From Muricea muricata (lineage: Eukaryota; Cnidaria; Anthozoa; Malacalcyonacea; Plexauridae), in NCBI GenBank assembly GCA_963855995.1, contig OY979725.1, positions 11,264,383-11,328,382 of the forward strand: 64,000 nt of DNA, given 5' to 3'. The notes under the pieces are model-generated. The model saw only the letters and a list, made by a program, of their open reading frames with translations, did no database searches and was not told where the DNA came from. This document shows positions 28,432-63,231 of the stretch, piece by piece; position 1 is the stretch's first letter; the number at the start of each line of letters is the position of its first letter. Position numbers and translations under genes: made by a program.

Positions 28432-29816
28432 TTAAGCCTCTGGTGCAACTGGTGGTTCTGTGGGTGCAACTGGTGGTGCTGTGGGTGCAACTGGTGGTGC
28501 TGTGGGTGCAACTGGTGGTTCTGTGGGTGCAACTGGTGGTTCTGTGGGTGCAACTGGTGGTTCTGTGGGTGCAACTGGTGGTTCTGTGGGTGCAAGCGGT
28601 GGGTTTAGGTCACAAAGGTCATCCTCCGGGGTATTTGTGTCAATGACCCTCACACTCTTCGTCAGCTCGGCGAAAAGCTTTTTTGTATTACTATCACGAA
28701 CGGTCCTTTTGTTAGCTTGCATAACGAGGCTGTAATACTCTCCTTCAGGTTTTATTCCAATAAAACCATCCACAAATCCCTCACCACAGGCGCCCGGCTT
28801 TCCCCCTAGGCCTTTAACAACGTACACTCCAAGTTTTTTTTGTTTTGCTGTTTCTGCAATGTACGCATTTTTCCTTGCTGTCGAGCCAAGAGCGGCGACT
28901 TCGGGCGAGAATAGAAGCTCGTGTGCATTGGGTTTGAGCAGAAACTCAACCAGGTGTTTGCCTTCCGTTGGTTTCTTTGAGCAAATATCTTTTGCTTGCT
29001 TGTGGTGGCCAATGTGTCCTGTTAGTTGTGACAGAAGTAAGTAACAAGGTGGTCTAGCTGTTTTACCCGTCAAATCGATCGTGATACTCTTAGCCTCTTT
29101 CAGTGCCATACATCGGTACACACAAATTTGTACTTTTTCTGCCTTTCCTGCAAGCTCGTCCGCTTTGCCACGAATATTGAGAGGGTCTGGACCTGGTGTT
29201 GATGTGTCCTTCCCTTCCCTATAAAACTTCGTAAAGTAGTCTTTGTCAGACGCCCTCGAAGCCGCGTCCTTAAAGGGTTTCAGTTCATTTTTCCACCACT
29301 GAGGATCCAGTGGATCTGGTGGTGCTGCGGCGGCTCGTGTAGTCCTGGAGGAAGCTCTTTCAGAAATATTGTCAGTGGATTTGGCAAATGCTTGGTCTAA
29401 AATCAAGGAGTCCAACCATGAGATTATAGATCATTAAAGCAGCATAAAACAGTGTTGTTAATTGTAACAGTATTAATTTGCACCACTTATATCGGGTGTT
29501 GGAAGAAGCAAAACCACAGTATATAGTATATTGTGATGTTATCCTTTTTCCTTAGCTATTCAAAGAGCAATCGTTCCGAAGAATGTTTATTATATTATAT
29601 AGATTTATTAAATCAATTATAGCTACTTGCGTTAAATACCAAAGGCAGATGAAAAAATATTTCAACAAAGCACTGGTGCTTGCATGTGTTTCATCAGTTA
29701 AATAAACTAGGAAAAAGATAAATATGTGCAAAAATCTTACGTGCTTTGGGTTGCACATCGCATTCTCCAAGTGTACATAGAATTAGCGTTAGCCAAGAAA
29801 CGTAGAGGAACTTCAT
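28432..29816 (-). CDS. Secreted repeat-tailed protein, copy B0 (two exons)
   Basis: Exon 1 (29741-29816) encodes 'MKFLYVSWLTLILCTLG', a good signal peptide, and ends at a GTAAG donor. Exon 2 (28432-29396) follows acceptor 'ttgattttag'. The join keeps frame and gives 346 residues. A second acceptor 13 bp before the ATG ('cttttag') suggests a spliced 5' leader. After the signal come an NIS sequon, a minimal R-x-x-R processing site (R43-R46; paralogues have RTKR), and a cysteine-bearing globular region ('VQICVYRCM', 'LTGHIGHHKQA', 'LVEFLLKPNAHELLFSPEV', 'GFIGIKPEGEYYSLVMQA'). The C-terminal tail has seven APTEPPV-type heptapeptides. Its intron is only 344 bp, without the foldback, LINE or DD37E insertions seen in the other copies, so this is the least invaded copy. 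I do not recognise the family. Confidence 0.85.
28439..28591 (-). repeat. 21-bp coding repeat, seven units (APTEPPV / APTAPPV)
   Basis: On the plus strand the unit is 'ggtgcaactggtggttctgt' plus one base. Each unit encodes a Pro/Thr heptapeptide at the C-terminus of the secreted protein. Five units encode Glu and two encode Ala at the variable position. The other array copies have 1, 2, 2, 2 and 3 units, so repeat number varies among paralogues. Confidence 0.9.
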
Positions 29817-32089: not shown

Positions 32090-34837
32090 TTAAGCCTCTG
32101 GTGCAACTGGTGGTTCTGTGGGTGCAACTGGTGGTGCTGTGGGTGCAAGCGGTGGGTTTAGGTCACAAAGGTCACCATTCGGGGTATCTGGGTCAATGAC
32201 CCTCGCACTCTGCGTCAGTTCGGCGAAAAGCTTTTTTGTATTATTATCACTAACCGCTTTTTTGTTGGCTTGCATAACGAGGCTGTAATACTCTCCTTCA
32301 GGTTTTATTCCAATAAAACCAGCCACAAATCCTTCACCAGCGCCCTTCTTTCCCGCAACAACGTACTCTCCAAGTTTTTTTTGTTTTGCTGTTTCTGCTA
32401 TCAACGCATTTTTCCTTGCTGTCGTACCAAGCGCGGCGACTTCGGGCGAGATTAGAAGCTCGTGTGCATTGGGTTTGAGCAGAAACTCAACCAGGTATTT
32501 GCCTTTCCTTGGTTGCCTTTGGCAAAGGTCTCTTGCTTGCACGTGGTGGCCAATGTGTCCTGTTAGCTGTGACAGAAATAAGTTACAAGGTATTTTTGCT
32601 CTGTTATGCTCCAAATCGACCGTAATTTTCTTAGCCTCTTCCTCTGGCATACATCGGTACACACAAATTTGTACTTTCTCTGCCTTTGCTGCACGCTTGT
32701 CCGCTTCGTCACGAATCTTGAGATGGTCTGGACCTGGTGTTGATTTGTCCTTGCCTTTATAAATCTTAGTAAAGTAATCTGGCTTACTCGCGGTCGCAAA
32801 CGCGCCCTTGAAGGGTTTCAGTTGATCTATCCAATACTGAGGAGATAGTGGATCTGGTGGTGCTGGATTGGCGGTAGCTCGTTTAGTCCTGGATGAAGAT
32901 CTTTCAGAAATATTGTCAGTGGATTTTGCAAATGCTTGGTCTAAAATCAAGAAGTGTAACCATGAAATTATAGATCGTCAAAGTAGTCCGGCAGCTAGAG
33001 GTACAAAAAACATGTTTACTTACCATAACGAGAGGCGATACCATTTTGGTTTTATCTTGCTCCTTAAAGGTTAGTAAGTATATTTCTGCACGTCGGCCGC
33101 GTTGAAATTTCTTGTGGCTTCTTGCCAACACGTTTTTCGCTAGTATCACCACAAAACTGTATTACTGTCAAAAAGGTGATATTTCTAGTTCAATTTTAGA
33201 AAAAATTTGATCATCAGAAAGCTCGTAAAAACTACATATAAGACATTTGAGTGGTAACCTAAATTTTTCCCGTTTTTAGTGAGTTATGAGTCTTTGAAAT
33301 CATATTTTCATACTAGTGCCAAGGATTTTTGTGAAATTTTAGCATTTTTTCGTAGTTTGAAGGATCAATAACATGAAAACCGCTTGAAAAATCGGGTTGA
33401 CCATTTGCAAGGCCTTATATCTAGTTTTTTATGAGCTTTTTGATGTTACTCATTTTTTCTAAAATTAAATTTGAAATATCACCTTTTTGACTATAATACA
33501 ATTTTATAGTAATATCGACGAAAAACGTGTTGGCAAGAGCCTACAAGAAATTTCAACCAGGCCGAAATGCAGAAATACTAACCTTAAAGGAGCAGAATAA
33601 AACCAAAATGAAATTGTCTCTCGATATGGGAAGCATATCGGCCTCTAGCTGCCGGATAAAGCATCATAAAACAGTGTTGTTAATTATAACTGCAGACGCA
33701 GTATTAATTTGCACCACTTATATAGGGTGTTAGAAGAAGCCAAACCGCAGTATATTATACAAATAATGAATGTTTATGAGTGCAATGGTAAGAATATTTT
33801 CATGAGGTGAAAGATTGATTGTTTCATTCAACGAGGCGATAGCCGAGTTATTTCGCATTCATCTCAAGACCGAAACCAGCCTAAGAAAATGGAACTTTTT
33901 ATCTAATATCACGTGACCATAATCAACAAATTAAACGACTAGAATTTAATGAGGTATTATATAAAGAATATTGCTGTGAGACAGGCTACAATCAAAGACT
34001 TACACTTTTAGACCTCCTCGCTTCGTACTACTGGCATGAATTTGTAGATATGGTAACCTTGTACAAATTTACCCATGACATCATGACCACTTACAACGAC
34101 TTATTACAGTCTACACCCAGCAACAACAGAAGGATGCCAGGTCAACTGATCTCAATCAAATGGTATTTACAACTACAAAATGCCATATGACTAACCACTA
34201 AAGGTCATTCTTTAACCGAACAAAAAGATTATGGAAAAATTCATCAAAGATTTTCACAAGCAATAACACTAGTTTAAGACAATTCAAAAACGGACTTTTC
34301 AAATATTACAAATTAGCGGTGGAAGACGTTTTTGACGTTGATGATCCAAGAACATGGAATCTATATGTTTGTCTTGTAACAAGTCTCGTAATCTGTCCCG
34401 TCAAATATCGTGTTGCTTTCAGATTAGTGTTCGTTGAATAGTATTAGCATAGTCCATGGGGCCGCTATAATTGGTGAAAACTGCTATTATATATATGCTG
34501 TCGTAAATTTTACTGTAAAATGTTGCATGTTAGTTGGCAAAGTTAAATAAATAAATGAATAAACTTGATGTTATCCTTTTTCTTAAGCCATTCAAAGAGC
34601 AATCGTTCCGTAGAATGTTATTATATTAAATATAGATTTATTTAATCAATTATACTTGCGTAAAAATATTGCAACAAAGCACTGGTGCTTGCATGTGTTT
34701 CATCAATTACAAAAACGAGGAAAAAGATAAATATATGTCAGTAAAAACGTACGGATCTTACGTGTTTTGGGTTGCTCGTCGCATTCTCCAAGTGTACACA
34801 GAATTAGCGTTAGCCAAGGAACGTACAGAAACTTCAT
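32090..34837 (-). CDS. Secreted repeat-tailed protein, copy A1 (two exons)
   Basis: Exon 1 is 34762-34837 (signal peptide 'MKFLYVPWLTLILCTLG'); exon 2 is 32090-32940. The splice is in phase and gives 308 residues. It has the RTKR processing motif and two C-terminal heptapeptides. Type-A proteins lack the cysteine found in type-B 'GACGEGF' (here 'GAGEGF') and have 'LEHNRAKIPC' in place of 'LTGKTAR.PC'. The 1.8-kb intron contains a 670-bp foldback element and a LINE fragment absent from B0. An acceptor ('cttttacag') just before the ATG suggests a spliced 5' leader. A minus-strand AATAAA lies at 31668-31673. Confidence 0.85.
32987..33656. mobile_element. 670-bp foldback element in A1 intron, 8-bp target duplication
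   Basis: The ends are TCCGGCAGCTAGAGG and CCTCTAGCTGCCGGA, with arms of about 200 bp. Flanks are CAAAGTAG (left) and TAAAGCAT (right), diverged from the TAAAGCAG still present at the B0 site (near 29430-29440, uninterrupted). The 8-bp duplication suggests a hAT-like or P-like non-autonomous element. The left arm carries the sequence 'ttaccataacgagaggcgat', the empty target site of the 4.2-kb element found in B1 and B2. Confidence 0.85.
33755..34563 (+). mobile_element. 5'-truncated LINE fragment in A1 intron
   Basis: The plus strand encodes a decayed reverse-transcriptase C-terminus with the non-LTR signature 'LLALYYWHEFVDMVTLYKF' and ends in an 'aaataaataaatgaataaa' tail. It is absent from B0, where 'agtatattgtgatgttatcc' is continuous. 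Frames are broken, so it is a dead insertion. The first 150 bp or so ('gagtgcaatggtaagaat...') may belong to another repeat. Confidence 0.65.
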
Positions 34838-36970: not shown

Positions 36971-39900
36971 TTAAGCCTCTGGTGCAACTGGTGGTTCTGT
37001 GGGTGCAACTGGTGGTTCTGTGGGTGCAAGCGGTGGGTTTAGATCACAAAGGTCATCATCCGGGGTACTTGTGTCAATGACCCTCACACTCTTCGTCAGT
37101 TCGGCGAAAAGCTTTTTTGTATTATTATCAGTAACGGATTTTTTGTCAGCTTGCATAACGAGGCTGTAATACTCTCCTTCAGGTTTTATTCCAATAAAAC
37201 CATCCACAAATCCCTCACCACAGGCGCCCGGCTTTCCCCGTAGGCCTTTAACAAAGTACACTCCAAGTTTTTTTTGTTTTGCTGTTTCTGCAATGTACGC
37301 ATTTTTCCTTGCTGTCGAGCCAAGAGCGGCGACTTCGGGCGAGAATAGAAGCTCGTGTGCATTGGGTTTGAGCAGAAACTCAACCAGTAATTTTTCCTCT
37401 TCTTCTTCTACTTCTTTTCCTTTTTTGCTTTCGCACATATCGTTTGCTTGCTTGTAGTGGCCAATGTGTCCTGTTAGTTGTGACAGAAATAAGTTACAAG
37501 GTGTTCTAGCTGTTTTACCCGTCAAATCGATCGTAATTCTTCTAGCCTCTTTCCTTGGCATACATCGGTACACACAAAATTGTACTTTTTTTGCTTTTGC
37601 TGCAAGCTCGTCCGCGTCGCCACGAATCTTGAGAGGGTCTGGCCTGGGTGTTGATTTTTTTTCCTTGCCTTTATAATGAGTAAAGTAATCTGGCATACTC
37701 GCTTTCACCCACGCGTCCTTGAAGGGTTCCAGTTGAGCTTTCCAATACGGAATGGATAGTGGATGTAGTGGTGTAGGATCGGCGGCAGCTCGTTTAGTCC
37801 CGGATGAAGCTCTTTCAGAAATATTGTGAGTGGACTTTGCAAATGCTTGGTCTAAAATCAAGGAGTGTGACCGTGAAATTATAGATCATTAAAGTAGTCC
37901 GGCAGCTAGAGGTACAAAACGAATGTTTACTTTCCATATTACCATTTGCAATCAACCGTTCGGTGCAAACTTTTTCACGCGTTGTTTGACACTCGAAACG
38001 TTCACGTTTGGCCCGCGAAACATTCACTATTAAACGTGTAAAGTAATTAGTTTATAGCGTGAGTTGACAACGTTTGACGAGTAACGCCCACATGTTCATC
38101 AAACGTAAGCGCACGTTCAGAGCAAGATTTGAAAAGATTGTGATTTTACAAACTGAATGTCAATATTATAACAATACTAACAAATAACAATGTCAGTGCA
38201 AGTAAAAATTTTATATGGTCGCGATTACGATCGTTGTAAAACGAGTTCGATTTTAACTAATAGTTTGAAAGATTTGGATTTGGCGATGTTGTCAAAAATT
38301 GTGTGGGACACAGTGGGAAGCTATTATCGCGATGGACGTGATGCCAAGTCTTTGAGAATACAATATCGCGACGATGAGGGTACATTTGTCACCGTTACTG
38401 ACGAAAATGATGTACGGGATGCTGTTCGTTCGTGCAAGCCAGTTCTTCAAGGGGACTACGAAGTGGTCCGATTGTGTCTACGAGTTGATGATGCTTGGAC
38501 GCCATTGGGGTTGAAAGATACCAAACCAGTCGAGAAACCTCGCGAAAAACGCCCTGCTACTTCTGGCGATGCACGAAAAAGATTATTTGATCATGACCAA
38601 AAGAAAGAAACAACGTATTCTTCCGATGAATCGCCTGTTGCCAAATCACCTTATCAAAGGTATGTGAAAAAAATCAAAGATGATATAGAGGCAAAAAAAT
38701 CCAAACTTTATGAACTCGAGAACAAAGAACAAGAAGTGCAAAGAAAAATACTGCGAGTTAAATCAGATCCGTCCAACGGCAACTTGTGTAGAAAGTGCCA
38801 TATGCGATTGGGGCACACTGCGCGTCTCTGTAAATACGAAAAATGATCATCTGTTTTTTCTTGTGGCGAAGAAAAATATCACCATGGCGAAATAGACTCT
38901 CGTGGGACACGTAATTCCATAAAAAAGATTAAAGACGACATTGCCAAACTCGAAACAGACCTAAAGCTAAAGGAAGGACAATCGAAGAAACCTCCAGAAA
39001 GTTTGTCCAATAAAATTGAAAACGCCCTTATGGAAGAGAACGGAGGCCATTTATATATCGATGCTGGAGTAAAGAAATGGACACTCTTGCGTAAACACGT
39101 CTATGTTATCGAGAAACACTGTAAAAAACACTTTGGTGGTAAGATACCTCCAAATCACAAACTTTCGGATATTTTAGAAGCCGCCTTAGACCAAGGTGAT
39201 GATTCAGACGAAAGTACAACCAACTTAACCATGTCGCAAGTCAAAACCAAAAGAACAAATCCAGCAAAAGTTATTCTGCAAGACCAAGGCATTTCATTTC
39301 CTAATCCTAGCGACCAAGGTACCTTCACTTCGCAGTCAAGCACAGTTTATTAGAGTCCAATTGTTCAGCTCAACAGGAACAGCAATCGCTTTTTACACCT
39401 GCAGCGAATGTCATGATGCCAATATATCCTAATCCTCCTCCGTATCATGTAAATAACAGTGCACCAGCTTATACATTTCCGAATGATTATTACGGGAACG
39501 TTAACCCATATCACAATCTCCCTGATATCCATCCGTACACACCGACAGTTCAACAACCTGCAGTATTTCACCAATCTTATGTCTCTCATGGACATGACGG
39601 TAGCTTTCCTGTAAATTCATCCGAAACGATTGCCGCACCAAACACTATTTCACCCCTTGATGATACGACAAAAAGTCAGACAACAGCAGAGACCAGGAAT
39701 GCTGCTTTACAGACTGTAAATTACTTTGTAAATTACAGTTGATGTTTCTCTCAAAAGGAAATGACGAGTGCCCTAAGTAAGAACATTTTGCAATCACTAT
39801 ACAGTATGTTGTGTTTCATATGGAACATAGCTCCATCATTTTGTTTGTCTATTAGAAGTGAATATTTCCATAAGTTCAATAAATTCATATTTTTAAACGA

Positions 39901-42900
39901 ATACACTGGATACATATATATATTACTCGAACTATAAACTGATTACTAGTAAAGCTTGAGCCGACAAATACAATTTGTAGATAATGTTTGTACACAGTTG
40001 CTGTGATCCTAGCCATTTGTTCGCTTAACAAAATTGATATTTAAAATTGACATTTATTTAAATGATAATGGTATCATATTTGTTGGAATTGTCCTGAACA
40101 CGATTTTCAAGGTTTTAACCAATTTATCGAGAATATATACCAACGCTTGTTTTAGGTATGCTAGATTGAATTGCTATATATATTAATATTTGAAGGGGTT
40201 GTAGAAATATATTGATATTTATATGTACATTATACAAATGTAAAGGAAAACGTACCAGAGTCAAATATGTTTGCTTTTTTCTTCGTTCTTCGTCGCAAAA
40301 ATGAATGTTTAACCTGTGCACATTTAGATTTAATTAGTAGTTCGAATATAGTAGGAGTTCGAACAATAAATTTGAACAAAGTTTGGCATCAATTTGTTAT
40401 TTATTATATCAGTAATTACGATGTTGTCAGTCAAGTTACTGACATCGCATGTAAACCGCGCCCTTGACACCCGATATTACGGCCTTGAGAAAATCTATTT
40501 AATATAACAACAATTTTTCATATCGATACATACTAACAACAAGTTTTTACCTGCAACATTTACATTGTACTAAATGTCATATCCTCCGCAGGCGTCTCTT
40601 GGTCCTCCCAGCGGCTTGCTTTAACAATGTCAATATACGTTATAATAATATATATTATAATATAATACATTTACATTTCCATAGAACGAGAATATATATA
40701 TTGTATGTAGTAAGACTACTTTCGGCCTTGAAACAATTTTCTATGTCGCGTATTGACGATAAAACCTTGAATACAATCATGTTTTTTCAATGCAGACAAT
40801 GTAAAACGTCACTCAATGGCAGGAAAAAGATAGGCCGTATGATGATAAAACTTTCTCGTATCCAACGCTGATACCCTTTCGACGGCTTCTGCAACAGCTA
40901 ATTTTAGATTACGATGCACATCGATAGAATAATGTCTGTTAAGTTCTGTTTTTATCTTATTGAAACAAAGTTCGATAGGATTAAGATCCGGTGAGTATGT
41001 TGGGGTAAACAACAGCTCTATACCCATCTCAGCAAGCACTTCTTCTAGAATTTGCCCTCCTTCGTAATGGTGAACAGCTAAATTGTCCATCACGACGATA
41101 TCCCCTACCTCGAGAGCAGGACGTCGAGTTATTTCATTTGCAGCTTGAGAAGCTTCCCAAAAGAAATCCCAAAACCTGACAGTGTCAGTTGGGCCGTCCA
41201 GAATGTTGTAATATTCCGGTCCATTCACTGAAATTAATAAGTTTAAAGTAAAATTTGGAGCTTCTGCTTTTCGAACAATTTCTACGCAGCGTTCACCAGA
41301 CGGTGCATTGCCATACAAACGTGTTCCAACGTCAGGAGTTTTAACCCCAGCTTCATCGAAGAATTTAATTCTTCTCGGATCTTTCGAAGACAGGTAGTTG
41401 ACGTACAGCTGAGTATACATCATATTTTCATCAGTAAAGCGTTCAAAAGCAATGCTAGTGATACGCTTTCGAGTATATCGTTTTCCGGACAAAAGTCTAG
41501 ATTTAATTGCTCGTGAAATAGCTGATAAAGAAACTCCACCACAATCACCAAATTCCTCAAGTATAGAATATAATTCATTGAGTTGTGTCGTGCTTTGCGT
41601 TTTCTTAAGAACCTCAAGGAGTTCGAGGTCTCCTTCAGAGAATTTGCTTGAACGGTCTCCGCCTCTTGGTGATGGATTAATATTTCGTCCTTCGTTGCAA
41701 ATTTTTTCCATATTTTAGAAACTGTGTTCGCAGAGACATTGAAGCGACTAGCTATAGACACATAAGTAACAGGTAAGTAACCAAAAGTTGCATCTCCACC
41801 AGATTTTAGGCATTCATCAATAATAAGACGTCTCAAATCATTGTCAAGAGATTTACCTAGGTTGTAGGACCTACCAAATTTGTTCACATTCATAAGTGCA
41901 CAGTTGCACAAGTAGGTTATAAATTCTTTCAAATCTTGCTCTGAAAGTGCGCTTGCGTTTGATAAACATGTGGGCGTTACTCGTCAAACGTTGTCAATTC
42001 ACGCCATAAACTAATTACTCTACACGTTTAACAGTGAATGTTTCGTGGGCCAAACGTGCACGTTTCGAGTGTCAAACAACGCGTGAAAAAGTTTTCGCCG
42101 AACGGTTGCTTGCAAATGGTAATAACGATAGGCGATACCATTTTGGTTTTATCTTGCTCCTTTAAGGTTAGTAAGTATATTTCTGCACGTCGGCCGCGTT
42201 GAAATTTCTTGTGGGCTCTTGCCAACACGTTTCTCGTTAGTATCACTACAAAACTGTATTACTGTCAAAAAAGGTGATATTTCTAGTTCAATTTTAGAAA
42301 AGATAACTTGCATCATGAGAAAGCTCGTAAAAAAACTACATATAAGACATTTGAGTGGTCACCTAAATTTTTCCAGTTTTTAGTGAGTTATGAGTCTTTG
42401 AAATCATATATTCATACTAGTGCCAAGGATTTTTGTGAAATTTTAGGATTTTTCGTAGTTTGAAGGATCAATAACTTGAAAACCGCTTGAAAAATCGGGG
42501 TGACCATTTACAAGGCCTTATATCTAGTTATTTTATGAGCTTTCTGATGATTTTTTCTAAAATTCAATTTGAAATATCACCTTTTTGACAGTAATACAGT
42601 TTTATAGTAATATCGACGAAAAACGTGTTGGCAAGAGCCTACAAGAAATTTCAACCAGGCCAACATGCAGAAATATACTTACTAACCTTAAAGGAACAAG
42701 ATAAAATCAAAATAGAATTGCCCCTCGATATGGTAAGTATATCGGCCTCTAGCTGCCGGATAAAGCAGCATAAAACAGTGTTGTTAATTGTAACTGCAGT
42801 ATTAATTTGCACCACTTATATAGGGTGTTAGAAGAAGCCAAACCGCAGTATATTATACAAATAGTGAATGTTTATGAGTGCAATGGTAAGAATATTTTCA

Positions 42901-46294: not shown

Positions 46295-49021
46295 TTAAGC
46301 CTCTGGTGCAACTGGTGGTTCTGTGGGTGCAAGCGGTGGGTTTAGATCACAAAGGTCAGCATTCGGGGTATCTGGGTCAATGACCCTCGCACTCTGCGTC
46401 AGTTCGGCGAAAAGTTTTTTTGTATTATTATCACTAACCGCTTTTTTGTTGGCTTGCATAACGAGGCTGTAATACTCTCCTTCAGGTTTTATTCCAATAA
46501 AACCAGCCACAAATCCTTCACCAGCGCCCTTCTTTCCCGCAACAACGTACTCTCCAAGTTTTTTTTGTTTTGCTGTTTCTGCTATCAACGCATTTTTCCT
46601 TGCTGTCGTACCAAGCGCGGCGACTTCGGGCGAGATTAGAAGCTCGTGTGCATTGGGTTTGAGCAGAAACTCAACCAGGTATTTGCCTTTCCTTGGTTGC
46701 CTTTGGCAAAGGTCTCTTGCTTGCACGTGGTGGCCAATGTGTCCTGTTGGCTGTGACAGAAATAAGTTACAAGGTATTTTTGCTCTGTTATGCTCCAAAT
46801 CGACCGTAATTTTCTTAGCCTCTTCCTCTGGCATACATCGGTACACACAAATTTGTACTTTCTCTGCCTTTGCTGCACGCTTGTCCGCTTCGTCACGAAT
46901 CTTGAGATGGTCTGGACCTGGTGTTGATTTGTCCTTGCCTTTATAAATCTTAGTAAAGTAATCTGGCTTACTCGCGGTCGCAAACGCGCCCTTGAAGGGT
47001 TTCAGTTGATCTATCCAATACTGAGGAGATAGTGGATCTGGTGGTGCTGGATTGGCGGTAGCTCGTTTAGTCCTGGATGAAGCTCTTTCAGAAATATTGT
47101 CAGTGGATTTTGCAAATGCTTGGTCTAAAATCAAGAAGTGTAACCATGAAATTATAGATCGTCAAAGTAGTCCGGCAGCTAGAGGTACAAAAAACATGTT
47201 TACTTACCATAACGAGAGGCGATACCATTTTGGTTTTATCTTGCTCCTTAAAGGTTAGTAAGTATATTTCTGCACGTCGGCCGCGTTGAAATTTCTTGTG
47301 GCTTCTTGCCAACACGTTTTTCGCTAGTATCACCACAAAACTGTATTACTGTCAAAAAGGTGATATTTCTAGTTCAATTTTAGAAAAAAATTGATCATCA
47401 GAAAGCTCGTAAAAACTACATATAAGACATTTGAGTGGTAACCTAAATTTTTCCCGTTTTTAGTGAGTTATGAGTCTTTGAAATCATATTTTCATACTAG
47501 TGCCAAGGATTTTTGTGAAATTTTAGCTTTTTTTCCTAGTTTGAAGGATCAATAACATGAAAACCGCTTGAAAAATCGGGTTGACCATTTACAAGGCCTT
47601 ATATCTAGTTTTTTATGAGCTTTCTGATGTTACTCATCCCCCCCAAAACTAAATTTGAAATATCACCTTTTTGACTATAATACAATTTTATAGTAATATC
47701 GACGAAAAACGTGTTGGCAAGAGCCTACAAGAAATTTCAACCAGGCCGAAATGCAGAAATACTAACCTTAAAGGAGCAGAATAAAACCAAAATGAAATTG
47801 TCTCTCGATATGGGAAGCATATCGGCCTCTAGCTGCCGGATAAAGCATCATAAAACAGTGTTGTTAATTATAACTGCAGACGCAGTATTAATTTGCACCA
47901 CTTATATAGGGTGTTAGAAGAAGCCAAACCGCAGTATATTATACAAATAATGAATGTTTATGAGTGCAATGGTAAGAATATTTTCATGAGGTGAAAGATT
48001 GATTGTTTCATTCAACGAGGCGATAGCCGAGTTATTCCGCATTCATCTCAAGACCGAAACCAGCCTAAGAAAATGGAACTTTTTATTTAATATCACGTGA
48101 CCATAATAAACAAATTAAACGACTAGAATTTAATGAGGTATTATATAAAGTATATTGCTGTGAGACAGGCTACAATCAAAGACTTACACTTTTAGACCTC
48201 CTCGCTTTGTACTACTGGCATGAATTTGTAGATATGGTAACCTTGTACAAATTTACCCATGACATCATGACCACTTACAACGACTTATTACAGTCTACAC
48301 CCAGCAACAACAGAAGGATGCCAGGTCAACTGATCTCAATCAAATGGTATTTACAACTACAAAATGCCATATGACTAACCACTAAAGGTCATTCTTTAAC
48401 CGAACAAAAAGATTATGGAAAAATTCATCAAAGATTTTCACAAGCAATAACACTAGTTTAAGACAATTCAAAAACGGACTTTTCAAATATTACAAATTAG
48501 CGGTGGAAGACGTTTTTGACGTTGATGATCCAAGAACATGGAATCTATATGTTTGTCTTGTAACAAGTCTCGTAATCTGTCCCGTCAAATATCGTGTTGC
48601 TTTCAGATTAGTGTTCGTTGAATAGTATTAGCATAGTCCATGGGGCCGCTATAATTGGTGAAAACTGCTATTATATATATGCTGTCGTAAATTTTACTGT
48701 AAAATGTTGCATGTTAGTTGGCAAAGTTAAATAAATAAATGAATAAACTTGATGTTATCCTTTTTCTTAAGCCATTCAAAGAGCAATCGTTCCATAGAAT
48801 GTTATTATATTAAATATAGATTTATTTAATCAATTATACTTGCGTAAAAATATTGCAACAAAGCACTGGTGCTTGCATGTGTTTCATCAATTACAAAAAC
48901 GAGGAAAAAGATAAATATATGTCAGTAAAAACGTACGGATCTTACGTGTTTTGGGTTGCTCGTCGCATTCTCCAAGTGTACACAGAATTAGCGTTAGCCA
49001 AGGAACGTACAGAAACTTCAT
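46295..49021 (-). CDS. Secreted repeat-tailed protein, copy A2 (two exons)
   Basis: Exon 1 is 48946-49021; exon 2 is 46295-47124. The in-phase join gives 301 residues. It differs from A1 by Ala for Ser before 'SSRTKR', Pro for Leu in the 'LFLSQLTGHIGHH' block, Ala for Gly near 'DLCDLNPP', and only one C-terminal heptapeptide, the shortest tail in the family. The intron contains the foldback element (47171-47840) and the LINE fragment (about 47939-48750). Confidence 0.85.
47171..47840. mobile_element. 670-bp foldback element in A2 intron
   Basis: Same ends and 8-bp flanks as the A1 element. One visible difference is a 'ccccccaaaac' run near 47640 in place of 'ttttctaaaat'. Its left arm holds the unoccupied DD37E target site. 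Confidence 0.83.
47939..48750 (+). mobile_element. LINE 3' fragment in A2 intron
   Basis: Same truncated reverse-transcriptase relic as in A1, with the same broken frames and 'aaataaataaatgaataaa' tail. Confidence 0.6.
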
Positions 49022-51142: not shown

Positions 51143-54100
51143 TTAAGCCTCTGGTGCAACTGGTGGTTCTGTGGGTGCAACTGGTGGTTCTGTGGGTGCA
51201 AGCGGTGGGTTTAGATCACAAAGGTCATCATCCGGGGTACTTGTGTCAATGACCCTCACACTCTTCGTCAGTTCGGCGAAAAGCTTTTTTGTATTATTAT
51301 CAGTAACGGATTTTTTGTCAGCTTGCATAACGAGGCTGTAATACTCTCCTTCAGGTTTTATTCCAATAAAACCATCCACAAATCCCTCACCACAGGCGCC
51401 CGGCTTTCCCCGTAGGCCTTTAACAAAGTACACTCCAAGTTTTTTTTGTTTTGCTGTTTCTGCAATGTACGCATTTTTCCTTGCTGTCGAGCCAAGAGCG
51501 GCGACTTCGGGCGAGAATAGAAGCTCGTGTGCATTGGGTTTGAGCAGAAACTCAACCAGTAATTTTTCCTCTTCTTCTTCTACTTCTTTTCCTTTTTTGC
51601 TTTCGCACATATCGTTTGCTTGCTTGTAGTGGCCAATGTGTCCTGTTAGTTGTGACAGAAATAAGTTACAAGGTGTTCTAGCTGTTTTACCCGTCAAATC
51701 GATCGTAATTCTTCTAGCCTCTTTCCTTGGCATACATCGGTACACACAAAATTGTACTTTTTTTGCTTTTGCTGCAAGCTCGTCCGCGTCGCCACGAATC
51801 TTGAGAGGGTCTGGCCTGGGTGTTGATTTTTTTTCCTTGCCTTTATAATGAGTAAAGTAATCTGGCATACTCGCTTTCACCCACGCGTCCTTGAAGGGTT
51901 CCAGTTGAGCTTTCCAATACGGAATGGATAGTGGATGTAGTGGTGTAGGATCGGCGGCAGCTCGTTTAGTCCCGGATGAAGCTCTTTCAGAAATATTGTG
52001 AGTGGACTTTGCAAATGCTTGGTCTAAAATCAAGGAGTGTGACCGTGAAATTATAGATCATTAAAGTAGTCCGGCAGCTAGAGGTACAAAACGAATGTTT
52101 ACTTTCCATATTACCATTTGCAATCAACCGTTCGGTGCAAACTTTTTCACGCGTTGTTTGACACTCGAAACGTTCACGTTTGGCCCGCGAAACATTCACT
52201 ATTAAACGTGTAAAGTAATTAGTTTATAGCGTGAGTTGACAACGTTTGACGAGTAACGCCCACATGTTCATCAAACGTAAGCGCACGTTCAGAGCAAGAT
52301 TTGAAAAGATTGTGATTTTACAAACTGAATGTCAATATTATAACAATACTAACAAATAACAATGTCAGTGCAAGTAAAAATTTTATATGGTCGCGATTAC
52401 GATCGTTGTAAAACGAGTTCGATTTTAACTAATAGTTTGAAAGATTTGGATTTGGCGATGTTGTCAAAAATTGTGTGGGACACAGTGGGAAGCTATTATC
52501 GCGATGGACGTGATGCCAAGTCTTTGAGAATACAATATCGCGACGATGAGGGTACATTTGTCACCGTTACTGACGAAAATGATGTACGGGATGCTGTTCG
52601 TTCGTGCAAGCCAGTTCTTCAAGGGGACTACGAAGTGGTCCGATTGTGTCTACGAGTTGATGATGCTTGGACGCCATTGGGGTTGAAAGATACCAAACCA
52701 GTCGAGAAACCTCGCGAAAAACGCCCTGCTACTTCTGGCGATGCACGAAAAAGATTATTTGATCATGACCAAAAGAAAGAAACAACGTATTCTTCCGATG
52801 AATCGCCTGTTGCCAAATCACCTTATCAAAGGTATGTGAAAAAAATCAAAGATGATATAGAGGCAAAAAAATCCAAACTTTATGAACTCGAGAACAAAGA
52901 ACAAGAAGTGCAAAGAAAAATACTGCGAGTTAAATCAGATCCGTCCAACGGCAACTTGTGTAGAAAGTGCCATATGCGATTGGGGCACACTGCGCGTCTC
53001 TGTAAATACGAAAAATGATCATCTGTTTTTTCTTGTGGCGAAGAAAAATATCACCATGGCGAAATAGACTCTCGTGGGACACGTAATTCCATAAAAAAGA
53101 TTAAAGACGACATTGCCAAACTCGAAACAGACCTAAAGCTAAAGGAAGGACAATCGAAGAAACCTCCAGAAAGTTTGTCCAATAAAATTGAAAACGCCCT
53201 TATGGAAGAGAACGGAGGCCATTTATATATCGATGCTGGAGTAAAGAAATGGACACTCTTGCGTAAACACGTCTATGTTATCGAGAAACACTGTAAAAAA
53301 CACTTTGGTGGTAAGATACCTCCAAAGCACAAACTTTCGGATATTTTAGAAGCCGCCTTAGACCAAGGTGATGATTCAGACGAAAGTACAACCAACTTAA
53401 CCATGTCGCAAGTCAAAACCAAAAGAACAAATCCAGCAAAAGTTATTCTGCAAGACCAAGGCATTTCATTTCCTAATCCTAGCGACCAAGGCACCTTCAC
53501 TTCGCAGTCAAGCACAGTTTATTAGAGTCCAATTGTTCAGCTCAACAGGAACAGCAATCGCTTTTTACACCTGCAGCGAATGTCATGATGCCAATATATC
53601 CTAATCCTCCTCCGTATCATGTAAATAACAGTGCACCAGCTTATACATTTCCGAATGATTATTACGGGAACGTTAACCCATATTACAATCTCCCTGATAT
53701 CTATCCGTACACACCGACAGTTCAACAACCTGCAGTATTTCACCAATCTGATGTCTCTCATGGACATGACAATAGCTTTCCTGTAAATTCATCCGAAACG
53801 ATTGCCGCACCAAACACTATTTCACCCCTTGATGATACGACAAAAAGTCAGACAACAGCAGAGACCAGGAATGCTGCTTTACAGACTGTAAATTACTTTG
53901 TAAATTACAGTTGATGTTTCTCTCAAAAGGAAATGACGAGTGCCCTAAGTAAGAACATTTTGCAATCACTATACAGTATGTTGTGTTTCATATGGAACAT
54001 AGCTCCATCATTTTGTTTGTCTATTAGAAGTGAATATTCCCATAAGTTCAATAAATTCATATTTTTAAACGAATACACTGGATAGATATATATATTACTC

Positions 54101-57100
54101 GAACTATAAACTGATTACTAGTAAAGCTTGAGCCGACAAATACAGTTTGTAAATAATGTTTGTACACAGTTGCCGTGATCCTAGCCATTTGTTCGCTTAA
54201 CAAAATTGATATTTAAAATTGACATTTATTTAAATGATAATGGTATCATATTTGTTGGAATTGTCCTGAACACGATTTTCAAGGTTTTAACCAATTTATC
54301 GAGAATATATACGCTTGTTTTAGGTATGCTAGATTGAATTGCTATATATATTAATATTTGAAGGGGTTGTAGAAATATATTGATATTTATATGTACATTA
54401 TACAAATGTAAAGGAAAACGTACCAGAGTCAAATATGTTTGCTTTTTTCTTCGTTCTTCGTCGCAAAAATGAATGTTTAACCTGTGCACATTTAGATTTA
54501 ATTAGTAGTTCGAATATAGTAGGAGTTCGAACAATAAATTTGAACAAAGTTTGGCATCAATTTGTTATTTATTATATCAGTAATTACGATGTTGTCAGTC
54601 AAGTTACTGACATCGCATGTAAACCGCGCCCTTGACACCCGATATTACGGCCTTGAGAAAATCTATTTAATATAACAACAATTTTTCATATCGATACATA
54701 CTAACAACAAGTTTTTACCTGCAACATTTACATTGTACTAAATGTCATATCCTCCGCAGGCGTCTCTTGGTCCTCCCAGCGGCTTGCTTTAACAATGTCA
54801 ATATACGTTATAATAATATATATTATAATATAATACATTTACATTTCCATAGAACGAGAATATATATATTGTATGTAGTAAGACTACTTTCGGCCTTGAA
54901 ACAATTTTCTATGTCGCGTATTGACGATAAAACCTTGAATACAATCATGTTTTTTCAATGCAGACAATGTAAAACGTCACTCAATGGCAGGAAAAAGATA
55001 GGCCGTATGATGATAAAACTTTCTCGTATCCAACGCTGATACCCTTTCGACGGCTTCTGCAACAGCTAATTTTAGATTACGATGCACATCGATAGAATAA
55101 TGTCTGTTAAGTTCTGTTTTTATCTTATTGAAACAAAGTTCGATAGGATTAAGATCCGGTGAGTATGTTGGGGTAAACAACAGCTCTATACCCATCTCAG
55201 CAAGCACTTCTTCTAGAATTTGCCCTCCTTCGTAATGGTGAACAGCTAAATTGTCCATCACGACGATATCCCCTACCTAGAGAGCAGCAGGTCGAGTTAT
55301 TTCATTTGCAGCTTGAGAAGCTTCCCAAAAGAAATCCCAAAACCTGACAGTGTCAGTTGGGCCGTCCAGAATGTTGTAATATTCCAGTCCATTCACTGAA
55401 ATTAATAAGTTTAAAGTAAAATTTGGAGCTTCTGCTTTTCGAACAATTTCTACGCAGCGTTCACCAGACGGTGCATTGCCATACAAACGTGTTCCAACGT
55501 CAGGAGTTTTAACCCCAGCTTCATCGAAGAATTTAATTCTTCTCGGATCTTTCGAAGACAGGTAGTTGACGTACAGCTGAGTATACATCATATTTTCATC
55601 AGTAAAGCGTTCAAAAGCAATGCTAGTGATACGCTTTCGAGTATATCGTTTTCCGGACAAAAGTCTAGATTTAATTGCTCGTGAAATAGCTGATAAAGAA
55701 ACTCCACCACAATCACCAAATTCCTCAAGTATAGAATATAATTCATTGAGTTGTGTCGTGCTTTGCGTTTTCTTAAGAACCTCAAGGAGTTCGAGGTCTC
55801 CTTCAGAGAATTTGCTTGAACGGTCTCCGCCTCTTGGTGATGGATTAATATTTCGTCCTTCGTTGCAAATTTTTTCCATATTTTAGAAACTGTGTTCGCA
55901 GAGACATTGAAGCGACTAGCTATAGACACATAAGTAACAGGTAAGTAACCAAAAGTTGCATCTCCACCAGATTTTAGGCATTCATCAATAATAAGACGTC
56001 TCAAATCATTGTCAAGAGATTTACCTAGGTTGTAGGACCTACCAAATTTGTTCACATTCATAAGTGCACAGTTGCACAAGTAGGTTATAAATTCTTTCAA
56101 ATCTTGCTCTGAAAGTGCGCTTGCGTTTGATAAACATGTGGGCGTTACTCGTCAAACGTTGTCAATTCACGCCATAAACTAATTACTTTACACGTTTAAC
56201 AGTGAATGTTTCGTGGGCCAAACGTGCACGTTTCGATTGTCAAACAACGCGTGAAAAAGTTTTCGCCGAACGGTTGCTTGCAAATGGTAATAACGATAGG
56301 CGATACCATTTTGGTTTTATCTTGCTCCTTTAAGGTTAGTAAGTATATTTCTGCACGTCGGCCGCGTTGAAATTTCTTGTGGGCTCTTGCCAACACGTTT
56401 CTCGTTAGTATCACTACAAAACTGTATTACTGTCAAAAAAGGTGATATTTCTAGTTCAATTTTAGAAAAGATAACTTGCATCATGAGAAAGCTCGTAAAA
56501 AAACTACATATAAGACATTTGAGTGGTCACCTAAATTTTTCCAGTTTTTAGTGAGTTATGAGTCTTTGAAATCATATATTCATACTAGTGCCAAGGATTT
56601 TTGTGAAATTTTAGGATTTTTCGTAGTTTGAAGGATCAATAACTTGAAAACCGCTTGAAAAATCGGGGTGACCATTTACAAGGCCTTATATCTAGTTCTT
56701 TTATGAGCTTTCTGATGATTTTTTCTAAAATTCAATTTGAAATATCACCTTTTTGACAGTAATACAGTTTTATAGTAATATCGACGAAAAACGTGTTGGC
56801 AAGAGCCTACAAGAAATTTCAACCAGGCCAACGTGCAGAAATATACTTACTAACCTTAAAGGAACAAGATAAAATCAAAATAGAATTGCCCCTCGATATG
56901 GTAAGTATATCGGCCTCTAGCTGCCGGATAAAGCAGCATAAAACAGTGTTGTTAATTGTAACTGCAGTATTAATTTGCACCACTTATATAGGGTGTTAGA
57001 AGAAGCCAAACCGCAGTATATTATACAAATAGTGAATGTTTATGAGTGCAATGGTAAGAATATTTTCATGGGGTGAAAGATTGATTGTTCCATTCAACGA

Positions 57101-60464: not shown

Positions 60465-63231
60465 TTAAGCCTCTGGTGCAACTGGTGGTTCTGTGGGTGC
60501 AACTGGTGGTTCTGTGGGTGCAACTGGTGGTTCTGTGGGTGCAAGCGGTGGGTTTAGATCACAAAGGTCAGCATTCGGGGTATCTGGGTCAATGACCCTC
60601 GCACTCTGCGTCAGTTCGGCGAAAAGTTTTTTTGTATTATTATCACTAACCGCTTTTTTGTTGGCTTGCATAACGAGGCTGTAATACTCTCCTTCAGGTT
60701 TTATTCCAATAAAACCAGCCACAAATCCTTCACCAGCGCCCTTCTTTCCCGCAACAACGTACTCTCCAAGTTTTTTTTGTTTTGCTGTTTCTGCTATCAA
60801 CGCATTTTTCCTTGCTGTCGTACCAAGCGCGGCGACTTCGGGCGAGATTAGAAGCTCGTGTGCATTGGGTTTGAGCAGAAACTCAACCAGGTATTTGCCT
60901 TTCCTTGGTTGCCTTTGGCAAAGGTCTCTTGCTTGCACGTGGTGGCCAATGTGTCCTGTTAGCTGTGACAGAAATAAGTTACAAGGTATTTTTGCTCTGT
61001 TATGCTCCAAATCGACCGTAATTTTCTTAGCCTCTTCCTCTGGCATACATCGGTACACACAAATTTGTACTTTCTCTGCCTTTGCTGCACGCTTGTCCGC
61101 TTCGTCACGAATCTTGAGATGGTCTGGACCTGGTGTTGATTTGTCCTTGCCTTTATAAATCTTAGTAAAGTAATCTGGCTTACTCGCGGTCGCAAACGCG
61201 CCCTTGAAGGGTTTCAGTTGATCTATCCAATACTGAGGAGATAGTGGATCTGGTGGTGCTGGATTGGCGGTAGCTCGTTTAGTCCTGGATGAAGCTCTTT
61301 CAGAAATATTGTCAGTGGATTTTGCAAATGCTTGGTCTAAAATCAAGAAGTGTAACCATGAAATTATAGATCGTCAAAGTAGTCCGGCAGCTAGAGGTAC
61401 AAAAAACATGTTTACTTACCATAACGAGAGGCGATACCATTTTGGTTTTATCTTGCTCCTTAAAGGTTAGTAAGTATATTTCTGCACGTCGGCCGCGTTG
61501 AAATTTCTTGTGGCTTCTTGCCAACACGTTTTTCGCTAGTATCACCACAAAACTGTATTACTGTCAAAAAGGTGATATTTCTAGTTCAATTTTAGAAAAA
61601 AATTGATCATCAGAAAGCTCGTAAAAACTACATATAAGACATTTGAGTGGTAACCTAAATTTTTCCCGTTTTTAGTGAGTTATGAGTCTTTGAAATCATA
61701 TTTTCATACTAGTGCCAAGGATTTTTGTGAAATTTTAGCATTTTTTCCTAGTTTGAAGGATCAATAACATGAAAACCGCTTGAAAAATCGGGTTGACCAT
61801 TTACAAGGCCTTATATCTAGTTTTTTATGAGCTTTCTGATGTTACTCATTTTCTCCAAAACTAAATTTGAAATATCACCTTTTTGACTATAATACAATTT
61901 TATAGTAATATCGACGAAAAACGTGTTGGCAAGAGCCTACAAGAAATTTCAACCAGGCCGAAATGCAGAAATACTAACCTTAAAGGAGCAGAATAAAACC
62001 AAAATGAAATTGTCTCTCGATATGGGAAGCATATCGGCCTCTAGCTGCCGGATAAAGCATCATAAAACAGTGTTGTTAATTATAACTGCAGACGCAGTAT
62101 TAATTTGCACCACTTATATAGGGTGTTAGAAGAAGCCAAACCGCAGTATATTATACAAATAATGAATGTTTATGAGTGCAATGGTAAGAATATTTTCATG
62201 AGGTGAAAGATTGATTGTTTCATTCAACGAGGCGATAGCCGAGTTATTCCGCATTCATCTCAAGACCGAAACCAGCCTAAGAAAATGGAACTTTTTATTT
62301 AATATCACGTGACCATAATCAACAAATTAAACGACTAGAATTTAATGAGGTATTATATAAAGTATATTGCTGTGAGACAGGCTACAATCAAAGACTTACA
62401 CTTTTAGACCTCCTCGCTTTGTACTACTGGCATGAATTTGTAGATATGGTAACCTTGTACAAATTTACCCATGACATCATGACCACTTACAACGACTTAT
62501 TACAGTCTACACCCAGCAACAACAGAAGGATGCCAGGTCAACTGATCTCAATCAAATGGTATTTACAACTACAAAATGCCATATGACTAACCACTAAAGG
62601 TCATTCTTTAACCGAACAAAAAGATTATGGAAAAATTCATCAAAGATTTTCACAAGCAATAACACTAGTTTAAGACAATTCAAAAACGGACTTTTCAAAT
62701 ATTACAAATTAGCGGTGGAAGACGTTTTTGACGTTGATGATCCAAGAACATGGAATCTATATGTTTGTCTTGTAACAAGTCTCGTAATCTGTCCCGTCAA
62801 ATGTCGTGTTGCTTTCAGATTAGTGTTCGTTGAATAGTATTAGCATAGTCCATGGGGCCGCTATAATTGGTGAAAACTGCTATTATATATGCTGTCGTAA
62901 ATTTTACTGTAAAATGTTGCATGTGAGTTGGCAAAGTTAAATAAATAAATGAATAAACTTGATGTTATCCTTTTTCTTAAGCCATTCAAAGAGCAATCGT
63001 TCCGTAGAATGTTATTATATTAAATATAGATTTATTTAATCAATTATACTTGCGTAAAAACATTGCAACAAAGCACTGGTGCTTGCATGTGTTTCATCAA
63101 TTACAAAAACGAGGAAAAAGATAAATATATGTCAGTAAAAACGTACGGATCTTACGTGTTTTGGGTTGCTCGTCGCATTCTCCAAGTGTACACAGAATTA
63201 GCGTTAGCCAAGGAACGTACAGAAACTTCAT
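60465..63231 (-). CDS. Secreted repeat-tailed protein, copy A3 (two exons)
   Basis: Exon 1 is 63156-63231; exon 2 is 60465-61336. The in-phase join gives 315 residues. The sequence matches A1 and A2 in the globular part and has three C-terminal heptapeptides. The intron contains the foldback element (61383-62052) and the LINE fragment (about 62153-62962). Confidence 0.85.
61383..62052. mobile_element. 670-bp foldback element in A3 intron
   Basis: Same ends and position as in A1 and A2, again with the unoccupied DD37E target site in its left arm. Confidence 0.83.
62153..62962 (+). mobile_element. LINE 3' fragment in A3 intron
   Basis: Same truncated relic and tail as in A1 and A2. Confidence 0.6.

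Follow-up and report, generated by a model that had tools for sequence, protein, structure and literature searches.

A two-gene Tc1/mariner-type transposon in Muricea muricata with a putative self-assembling accessory protein

Introduction

Tc1/mariner elements are the standard example of a transposon that works with one enzyme, and gene-delivery tools are based on them. In the stretch of Muricea muricata DNA analysed here (64 kb of contig OY979725.1, called the window; C10:11264383-11328382), an element of this type carries two genes: a DD37E transposase gene and, facing it, an accessory gene encoding a PB1 protein. What does the second gene do? The best explanation, to which we give a probability of about 60%, is that this is a degenerate two-gene Tc1/mariner-type transposon whose accessory protein is a self-assembling transposition factor that binds the element's ends. 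The two-gene architecture itself is close to certain, and self-assembly, as predicted from the protein's domains, is likely. Because the pairing recurs in many relatives across the genome, the accessory protein probably belongs to the functioning transposition machinery.

The element and its ends

The element and the places that define it are as follows (window coordinates).

37937..37938, left TA target-site duplication
37939-42122, two-gene element, bounded by terminal repeats and flanking TA
37939..38139, + strand, left terminal inverted repeat, beginning TTACCATTTGCAA
38190..38846, + strand, 5′ part of the accessory gene, with PB1, the coiled coil and the beginning half of the zinc module, ended by a premature TGA
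38847..39353, + strand, accessory gene, same-frame continuation (second half of the zinc module, long helix, NW-LLRKHVY domain, NPAK motif), ending at TAG
39323..39742, + strand, accessory gene, shifted frame (P/Q/Y-rich tail), from the open reading frame (ORF) and an alignment to the relative P0139
40809..41893, − strand, DD37E transposase gene, with one frameshift at about 41699-41708
41922..42122, − strand, right terminal inverted repeat
42123..42124, right TA target-site duplication
33026..33027, 47210..47211 and 61422..61423, empty sites 1, 2 and 3, each a single TA
52111..56290, + strand, second full copy of the element, within a tandem duplication of ∼14 kb

The two repeats, put at 195 bp in the initial annotation, are identical in 187 of 201 aligned columns (by BLAST, 198 bp at 93.9%), and the start given there, 37938, is the A of the TA, so that the element itself begins at 37939. 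The TA duplication and the empty site proposed for three paralogous places are both borne out, each place in the window having one TA and no insert; with its TA duplication and terminal inverted repeats the element has both of these Tc1/mariner features. The genes converge from just inside the repeats, as had been described, the accessory ATG (38190) lying 51 bp inside the left repeat and the transposase ATG (41893) 29 bp inside the right. Since the two start codons lie so close to repeats that are nearly identical, the same promoter sequence in both repeats may drive both genes.

The second copy is 99.5% identical to the first, with 1-kb flanks 99.7-99.9% identical, and it is not a second transposition, since it is contained in the ∼14-kb duplication. 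The genes are also less intact than first described: the accessory frame is cut by a TGA, continues and then shifts, and the transposase gene is frameshifted. With both genes broken, the window copy is degenerate and probably not autonomous.

Pairing across the genome

The 453-Mb, 74-contig assembly was searched with the accessory protein read through (P0138) and with a transposase query (P0019); locus counts cover the best-scoring candidates and are lower bounds. P0138 gave 105 matches, merging into 84 loci, and P0019 gave 117, merging into 101. A transposase lies within 10 kb of 55 of the 84 accessory loci, always convergent, and shifting the positions by 0.2, 0.5, 1 and 3 Mb leaves 0, 0, 0 and 1 pairs. 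After 7 partner loci and 32 transposase loci were added, 59 of 91 PB1 loci are paired, again all convergent (59/59), and five shift controls yield 0, 0, 0, 1 and 1 pairs. This universal convergence and the shift controls exclude chance adjacency of the two genes. Among transposases at least 50% identical to P0019, 32 of 36 are paired, as are 22 of 31 at 40-50% identity. The PB1 gene is thus not confined to places outside such repeats, nor do related transposons consistently lack it, the two outcomes that the initial annotation had named as fatal to its proposal.

In the first merge 46 of the 101 transposase loci had no PB1 partner. Further queries paired two of them (C1:75.8M and C5:10.7M), and 12 of the remaining 44 were inspected. 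Five of these 12 are far loci, every one of which has a zinc accessory gene; among the other seven, the accessory gene is present at L079 and L081, remnants of it at L077 and L078, and none at L075, L076 and L080.

Eighteen stretches, each assembled from two or more loci, were inspected for repeats. An inverted repeat of some kind is present in 13, and clean TA-bounded ends enclose both genes in eight (both window copies, C4, C1:49.8M, C15, C7, C3:58.7M and C9); in the other five no inverted repeat was found within the DNA examined. In three copies of a related subfamily, a 245-251-bp pair of family ends sits between the two genes (C1:61297800-61298050, C1:68130077-68130321 and C2:59839353-59839597), as would result from insertion of a short non-autonomous element into the ancestor of that subfamily.

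Recent mobility and co-divergence

The elements on C15 and C7 are 99.87% identical over 4,536 bp and 100% over 245 bp, about 150 bp of the C15 element being absent from C7, and the match ends at the terminal repeats. C9 is 99.6-99.7% identical to C6 and C2:4.97M over 3.0-3.5 kb. Both frames are open in C15, C7, C9, C2:4.97M and C1:49.8M. Between C9 and C1:49.8M all four frames are open while synonymous sites are saturated, with a nonsynonymous divergence (dN) of 0.43 in the accessory gene but 0.23 in the transposase; against C15 the values are 0.83-0.91 and 0.43. In young or degenerate pairs the ratio of dN to synonymous divergence (dS) is 0.36-0.69, which gives no strong signal of constraint and would fit decaying copies.

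Trees of 19 pairs, of the kind the initial annotation had suggested, agree in part: several groups are common to both proteins, the deep forks are weak, and C15, on a long branch in the partner tree, is placed differently. Partner and transposase distances correlate at r 0.90, or 0.79 with 13 representatives, and none of 5,000 permutations reaches either value. A single pair of repeats encloses both genes, both are present in recent copies, and their frames have stayed open through long divergence, with the two proteins changing in parallel over a broad lineage.

The accessory protein

In the window copy the accessory ORF runs for 218 codons to the TGA at 38844-38846, a position that holds a Cys in P0002, P0005, P0006, P0013 and P0017. 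The frame after it is open to 39350, where a frameshift follows. Residues 1-386 of the 528-residue relative P0139 align to 38190-39350 at 86% identity, and residues 400-512 to the shifted frame 39323-39664 at 71%. The longer relatives, C-terminal part included, have about 470-600 residues.

The PB1 domain, coiled coil and P/Q/Y-rich tail first read from the sequence hold up, as does membership of the element. The search of the 218 residues against the PB1 profile that had been suggested gives PF00564 at E 9.4e-7, above the cut-off (three relatives in the genome fall below it, at 0.0001-0.017), and the structure model of P0139 has the ubiquitin-like PB1 fold. The zinc part is larger than the CCHC knuckle originally recognised: the knuckle C-x2-C-x5-H-x4-C at residues 200-214 belongs to C-x2-C-H-x4-H-x4-C-x4-C-x5-C-G-x4-H, a signature strict in 34 of the 41 relatives with a knuckle trace (51 scanned). 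This module and the middle domain are the most conserved part of the protein. Read as a whole, the protein would comprise a self-assembling PB1 domain, a coiled coil, the zinc module, a conserved helical middle domain, a disordered P/Q/Y tail and a recurrent C-terminal motif.

Capture from a TFG-like host gene, as once supposed, does not hold, the PB1 being no closer to TFG than to other PB1 proteins. The family profile matches several of them similarly weakly (Cdc24, E 0.0042; p40phox, 0.019; TFG, 0.02; NBR1, 0.068), and by fold the PB1 model of P0139 ranks Par6, p67phox, p62 and NBR1 above TFG, which comes 12th. TFG, p62 and NBR1 are PB1 scaffold proteins of the host, of which the PB1 part alone matches, at ∼15% identity. 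Phmmer searches of the window ORFs against PDB returned coiled-coil noise and weak matches to the NBR1 PB1 (E 0.12) and SETMAR (E 0.29).

The transposase

The window transposase matches DDE_3 (PF13358) at E 1.1e-21, in keeping with the DDE assignment made earlier and with a transposase of Tc1/IS630 type. The catalytic D, D and E are invariant in 12 aligned transposases, and the proposed 37 residues from the second D to the E are found in the window copy and in all 12 aligned relatives. A PAIRED-type helix-turn-helix is recognised in two relatives (PAX: P0120, 1.6e-6; L069, 8.6e-17); in the window family and P0019 the N-terminal helix-turn-helix gives only weak matches below the cut-off.

A phage search returned four distant DDE matches at 28-41% identity (MT835684, MT835881, MT836403 and MT838236), all unannotated human faecal phage contigs and possibly IS630-type transposases. 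Scans of viral contigs with P0013 and P0018 found no relative.

Relatives outside this genome

Where relatives of the transposase or the PB1 protein carry a species name, they come from anthozoans: Dendronephthya gigantea (89% over 84% of the query), Actinia tenebrosa (65%), Montipora foliosa (59%) and Paramuricea clavata. Searches of a public protein set yielded 17 partner relatives at first and 56 in a second round, 58 altogether, and 410 transposase relatives, of which 120 were listed. Five of the 58 partners have a longest contig of exactly the same size as that of one of the 120 listed transposases, and offsetting the sizes by 1-5 bases gives one such pair; we take equal-sized longest contigs to be the same contig. 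One of them, of 3,566 bp, would hold a 530-residue partner and a 359-residue transposase.

Far relatives with an apparently constant zinc core

Five far loci whose transposases are 30-35% identical and which have no PB1 match were fetched (C3:21.5M, C1:56.5M, C13:6.95M, C2:58.9M and C2:50.9M). In all five a gene with the zinc signature faces the transposase. The signature is complete in four, with somewhat varied spacing (C-x2-C-H-x3-H-x(7-10)-C-x4-C ... C-G ... H); at C2:58.9M its first part is present and the frame then ends, at a break or an intron. The accessory N-termini of C1:56.5M and C13, which are two close copies, carry SAM domains above the cut-off (SAM_2, 4.8e-5 and 1.3e-4). The N-termini of L070 and L073 were not joined by hhalign to these two Pfam-supported domains, nor did Pfam or PDB sequence searches support SAM there, and SAM is therefore claimed for two loci of one subfamily only. 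The N-terminus of C2:50.9M is PB1-like by eye, without Pfam support.

The far C3 element has 164-bp repeats, 96% identical, enclosing both genes, and its transposase is DD38E, with 38 residues from the second D to the E. That transposase, used as query, reads 100% over 340 residues without stops at C3:21533112 (the query itself), C7:10040581, C4:2427319 and C1:78802852, which suggests very recent activity.

Because the far loci carry the zinc signature, and some carry SAM in place of PB1, what stays constant in the partner appears to be its zinc and helical core, the N-terminal assembly domain having been exchanged at least once; PB1, absent from the N-terminus of the two SAM loci, would not be its constant part. 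PB1 and SAM domains are both able to polymerise head to tail. Tentatively, and with rather less than an even chance, the deep DD37E/DD38E lineage would be a two-protein machine, combining the zinc and helical core with an exchangeable PB1 or SAM polymerisation domain, and transposition would need the polymer scaffold on its long ends.

What the accessory protein may do

In the mechanism that we favour, the accessory protein would form a head-to-tail polymer by way of PB1 (or, in some far relatives, SAM), its zinc module would bind the long terminal repeats, and the polymer would gather the ends and the transposase, perhaps with host factors, into one assembly. End binding is favoured because, in Harbinger transposons, the Myb-like partner attaches to the terminal repeats and accompanies its transposase into the nucleus (PMC9179366). 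A self-assembling end-binding factor is the likeliest role on this analogy, its chance against regulation and anti-silencing standing just short of even.

Several observations weigh against this reading. Zinc binding, DNA binding and polymerisation are all predicted from sequence. Pfam places PB1 above the cut-off in five of 10 long partners, weakly in four and not at all in one, and 14 of 23 proteins, some of them truncated, do not fit the strict Lys/OPCA pattern. The zinc stretch and tail are poorly modelled in P0139, Foldseek against solved folds gave the middle domain no match with E below 0.8, and the N-termini of C3 and C2:58.9M are SAM-like by eye, without support. A PB1-family partner accompanies only three of 34 transposases below 40% identity and two of the 32 later-added loci, which have no identity value; five loci from these two sets were inspected. 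No convergent accessory gene was found within ∼3 kb at L075, L076 or L080, the last having one weak match in the wrong orientation. Conversely, no transposase lies within 10 kb of 32 of the 91 PB1 loci; the one examined, L082 (C15:8844300-8846300; PB1 match C15:8844065), adjoins the 5′ part of a transposase on the other strand, and reads as an internal deletion derivative retaining both gene starts.

The accessory protein could instead act outside the transposition complex, as an anti-silencing or host-interaction factor whose condensates sequester host repressors or ubiquitin-pathway proteins. We consider this unlikely, though the strongest of the alternatives: PB1, the P/Q/Y tail and a UIM-like stretch recall scaffolds of selective autophagy and the ubiquitin pathway, and the A-x2-L-x2-L motif near the C-terminus (14 of 23 proteins) could serve as a docking peptide. 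The UIM-like stretch occurs in 15 of the 23 proteins longer than 430 residues; Pfam called no UIM in the 10 scanned. The conservation of the zinc module and middle domain suggests nucleic-acid binding instead, and accessory and transposase distances closely co-vary. Still less likely is a role in repressing transposition or regulating copy number, known from P-element-type systems; this role would suit a protein that self-assembles, may bind DNA and is made from the same repeat sequence as the transposase, but very recent copies have both genes intact, and no sign of accessory-only copies being favoured was seen here, where no dedicated measurement was made.

That the element carries along a host gene acquired in a single capture and of no function to it is very improbable, and we reject this passenger reading. 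Passenger genes decay, whereas here open frames persist across partners only 22-30% identical, synonymous sites are saturated and far relatives share the zinc module. In its favour, PB1 is mostly a host domain, and a review treating MUSTANG-B describes PB1 as usually not associated with transposable elements and as likely acquired there by transduplication (PMC8616336). An old nested insertion of two unrelated elements is scarcely credible as the source of the pairing: short elements with family ends do sit between the genes of a related subfamily, but all 59 pairs are convergent, the repeats enclose both genes, the distances co-vary and the pairs lie on many contigs.

Relation to known systems

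Harbinger transposases belong to a superfamily, and use a target site, unlike those of Tc1/mariner. As in the element described here, Harbinger is a two-gene DNA transposon in which both genes persist with largely congruent phylogenies, and its Myb-like partner serves nuclear import by interacting with the transposase (PMC9179366). That partner is a Myb/SANT tri-helix protein, in contrast with the PB1 or SAM and zinc module here; Pfam gave DDE_3 and PB1, with no Myb/SANT among the matches.

The statement that Tc1/mariner elements normally encode only a transposase needs qualifying, because ciliate Tec and TBE elements have three ORFs, one of which in TBE encodes a zinc-finger protein (PMC7325037). 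Those elements are likewise Tc1/mariner with more than one ORF, but they are DD34E and restricted to ciliates, and the portion of the description consulted does not mention PB1, SAM or this zinc signature (PMC7325037). The DD37E families MS, TRT, L18 and L31 share the TA target, a transposase of ∼340-370 residues and the 37-residue spacing; MS repeats span 19-203 bp, and L18 has been studied in cnidarians (PMC10379824, in part). The window element differs from the animal family MS, which is described with one transposase ORF and mostly measures 1.3-1.8 kb, some elements exceeding 4 kb (PMC10379824), and from TRT, described with a 1,563-bp element. In plants, the domesticated MUSTANG-B transposases likewise have PB1 joined to a transposon-derived gene (PMC3435246, PMC8616336), but they are MULE-type, and a single host gene encodes the fusion of PB1 and transposase, in contrast to a separate mobile gene.

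In the portions consulted of the open-licence PMC literature, Repbase and subscription papers lying outside the search, no Tc1/mariner element was reported with a PB1 or SAM partner. Multi-ORF Tc1/mariner elements are known from ciliates, and a PB1/SAM zinc partner is apparently new; nor was a polymer-scaffold mode of transposition found described for Tc1/mariner in the same literature. If the reading is true, a lineage with a second, self-assembling gene would suggest that partner-dependent transposition evolved in Tc1/mariner too. The pairing would then offer a natural test of how polymerising PB1 or SAM proteins act on DNA, with the recent intact pairs as candidates for cell assays. Searches for such elements that look for the transposase only overlook half of each element.

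Neighbouring features

A repeated protein family with APTEPPVAP-repeat tails occupies the − strand of the window between 28432 and 61346, copied in part by the ∼14-kb duplication; Pfam gave no significant match in the one ORF scanned.

28432-29415, 32090-32950, 36971-37861, 46295-47134, 51143-52033 and 60465-61346, − strand, ORFs with APTEPPVAP-repeat tails

The right flank of the insertion (42122-42739) matches its own reverse strand and that of its paralogues (33017-33633, 47201-47817 and 61413-62029) at ∼76-78% over ∼620 bp, and forms a long imperfect palindrome with the transposon at its edge.

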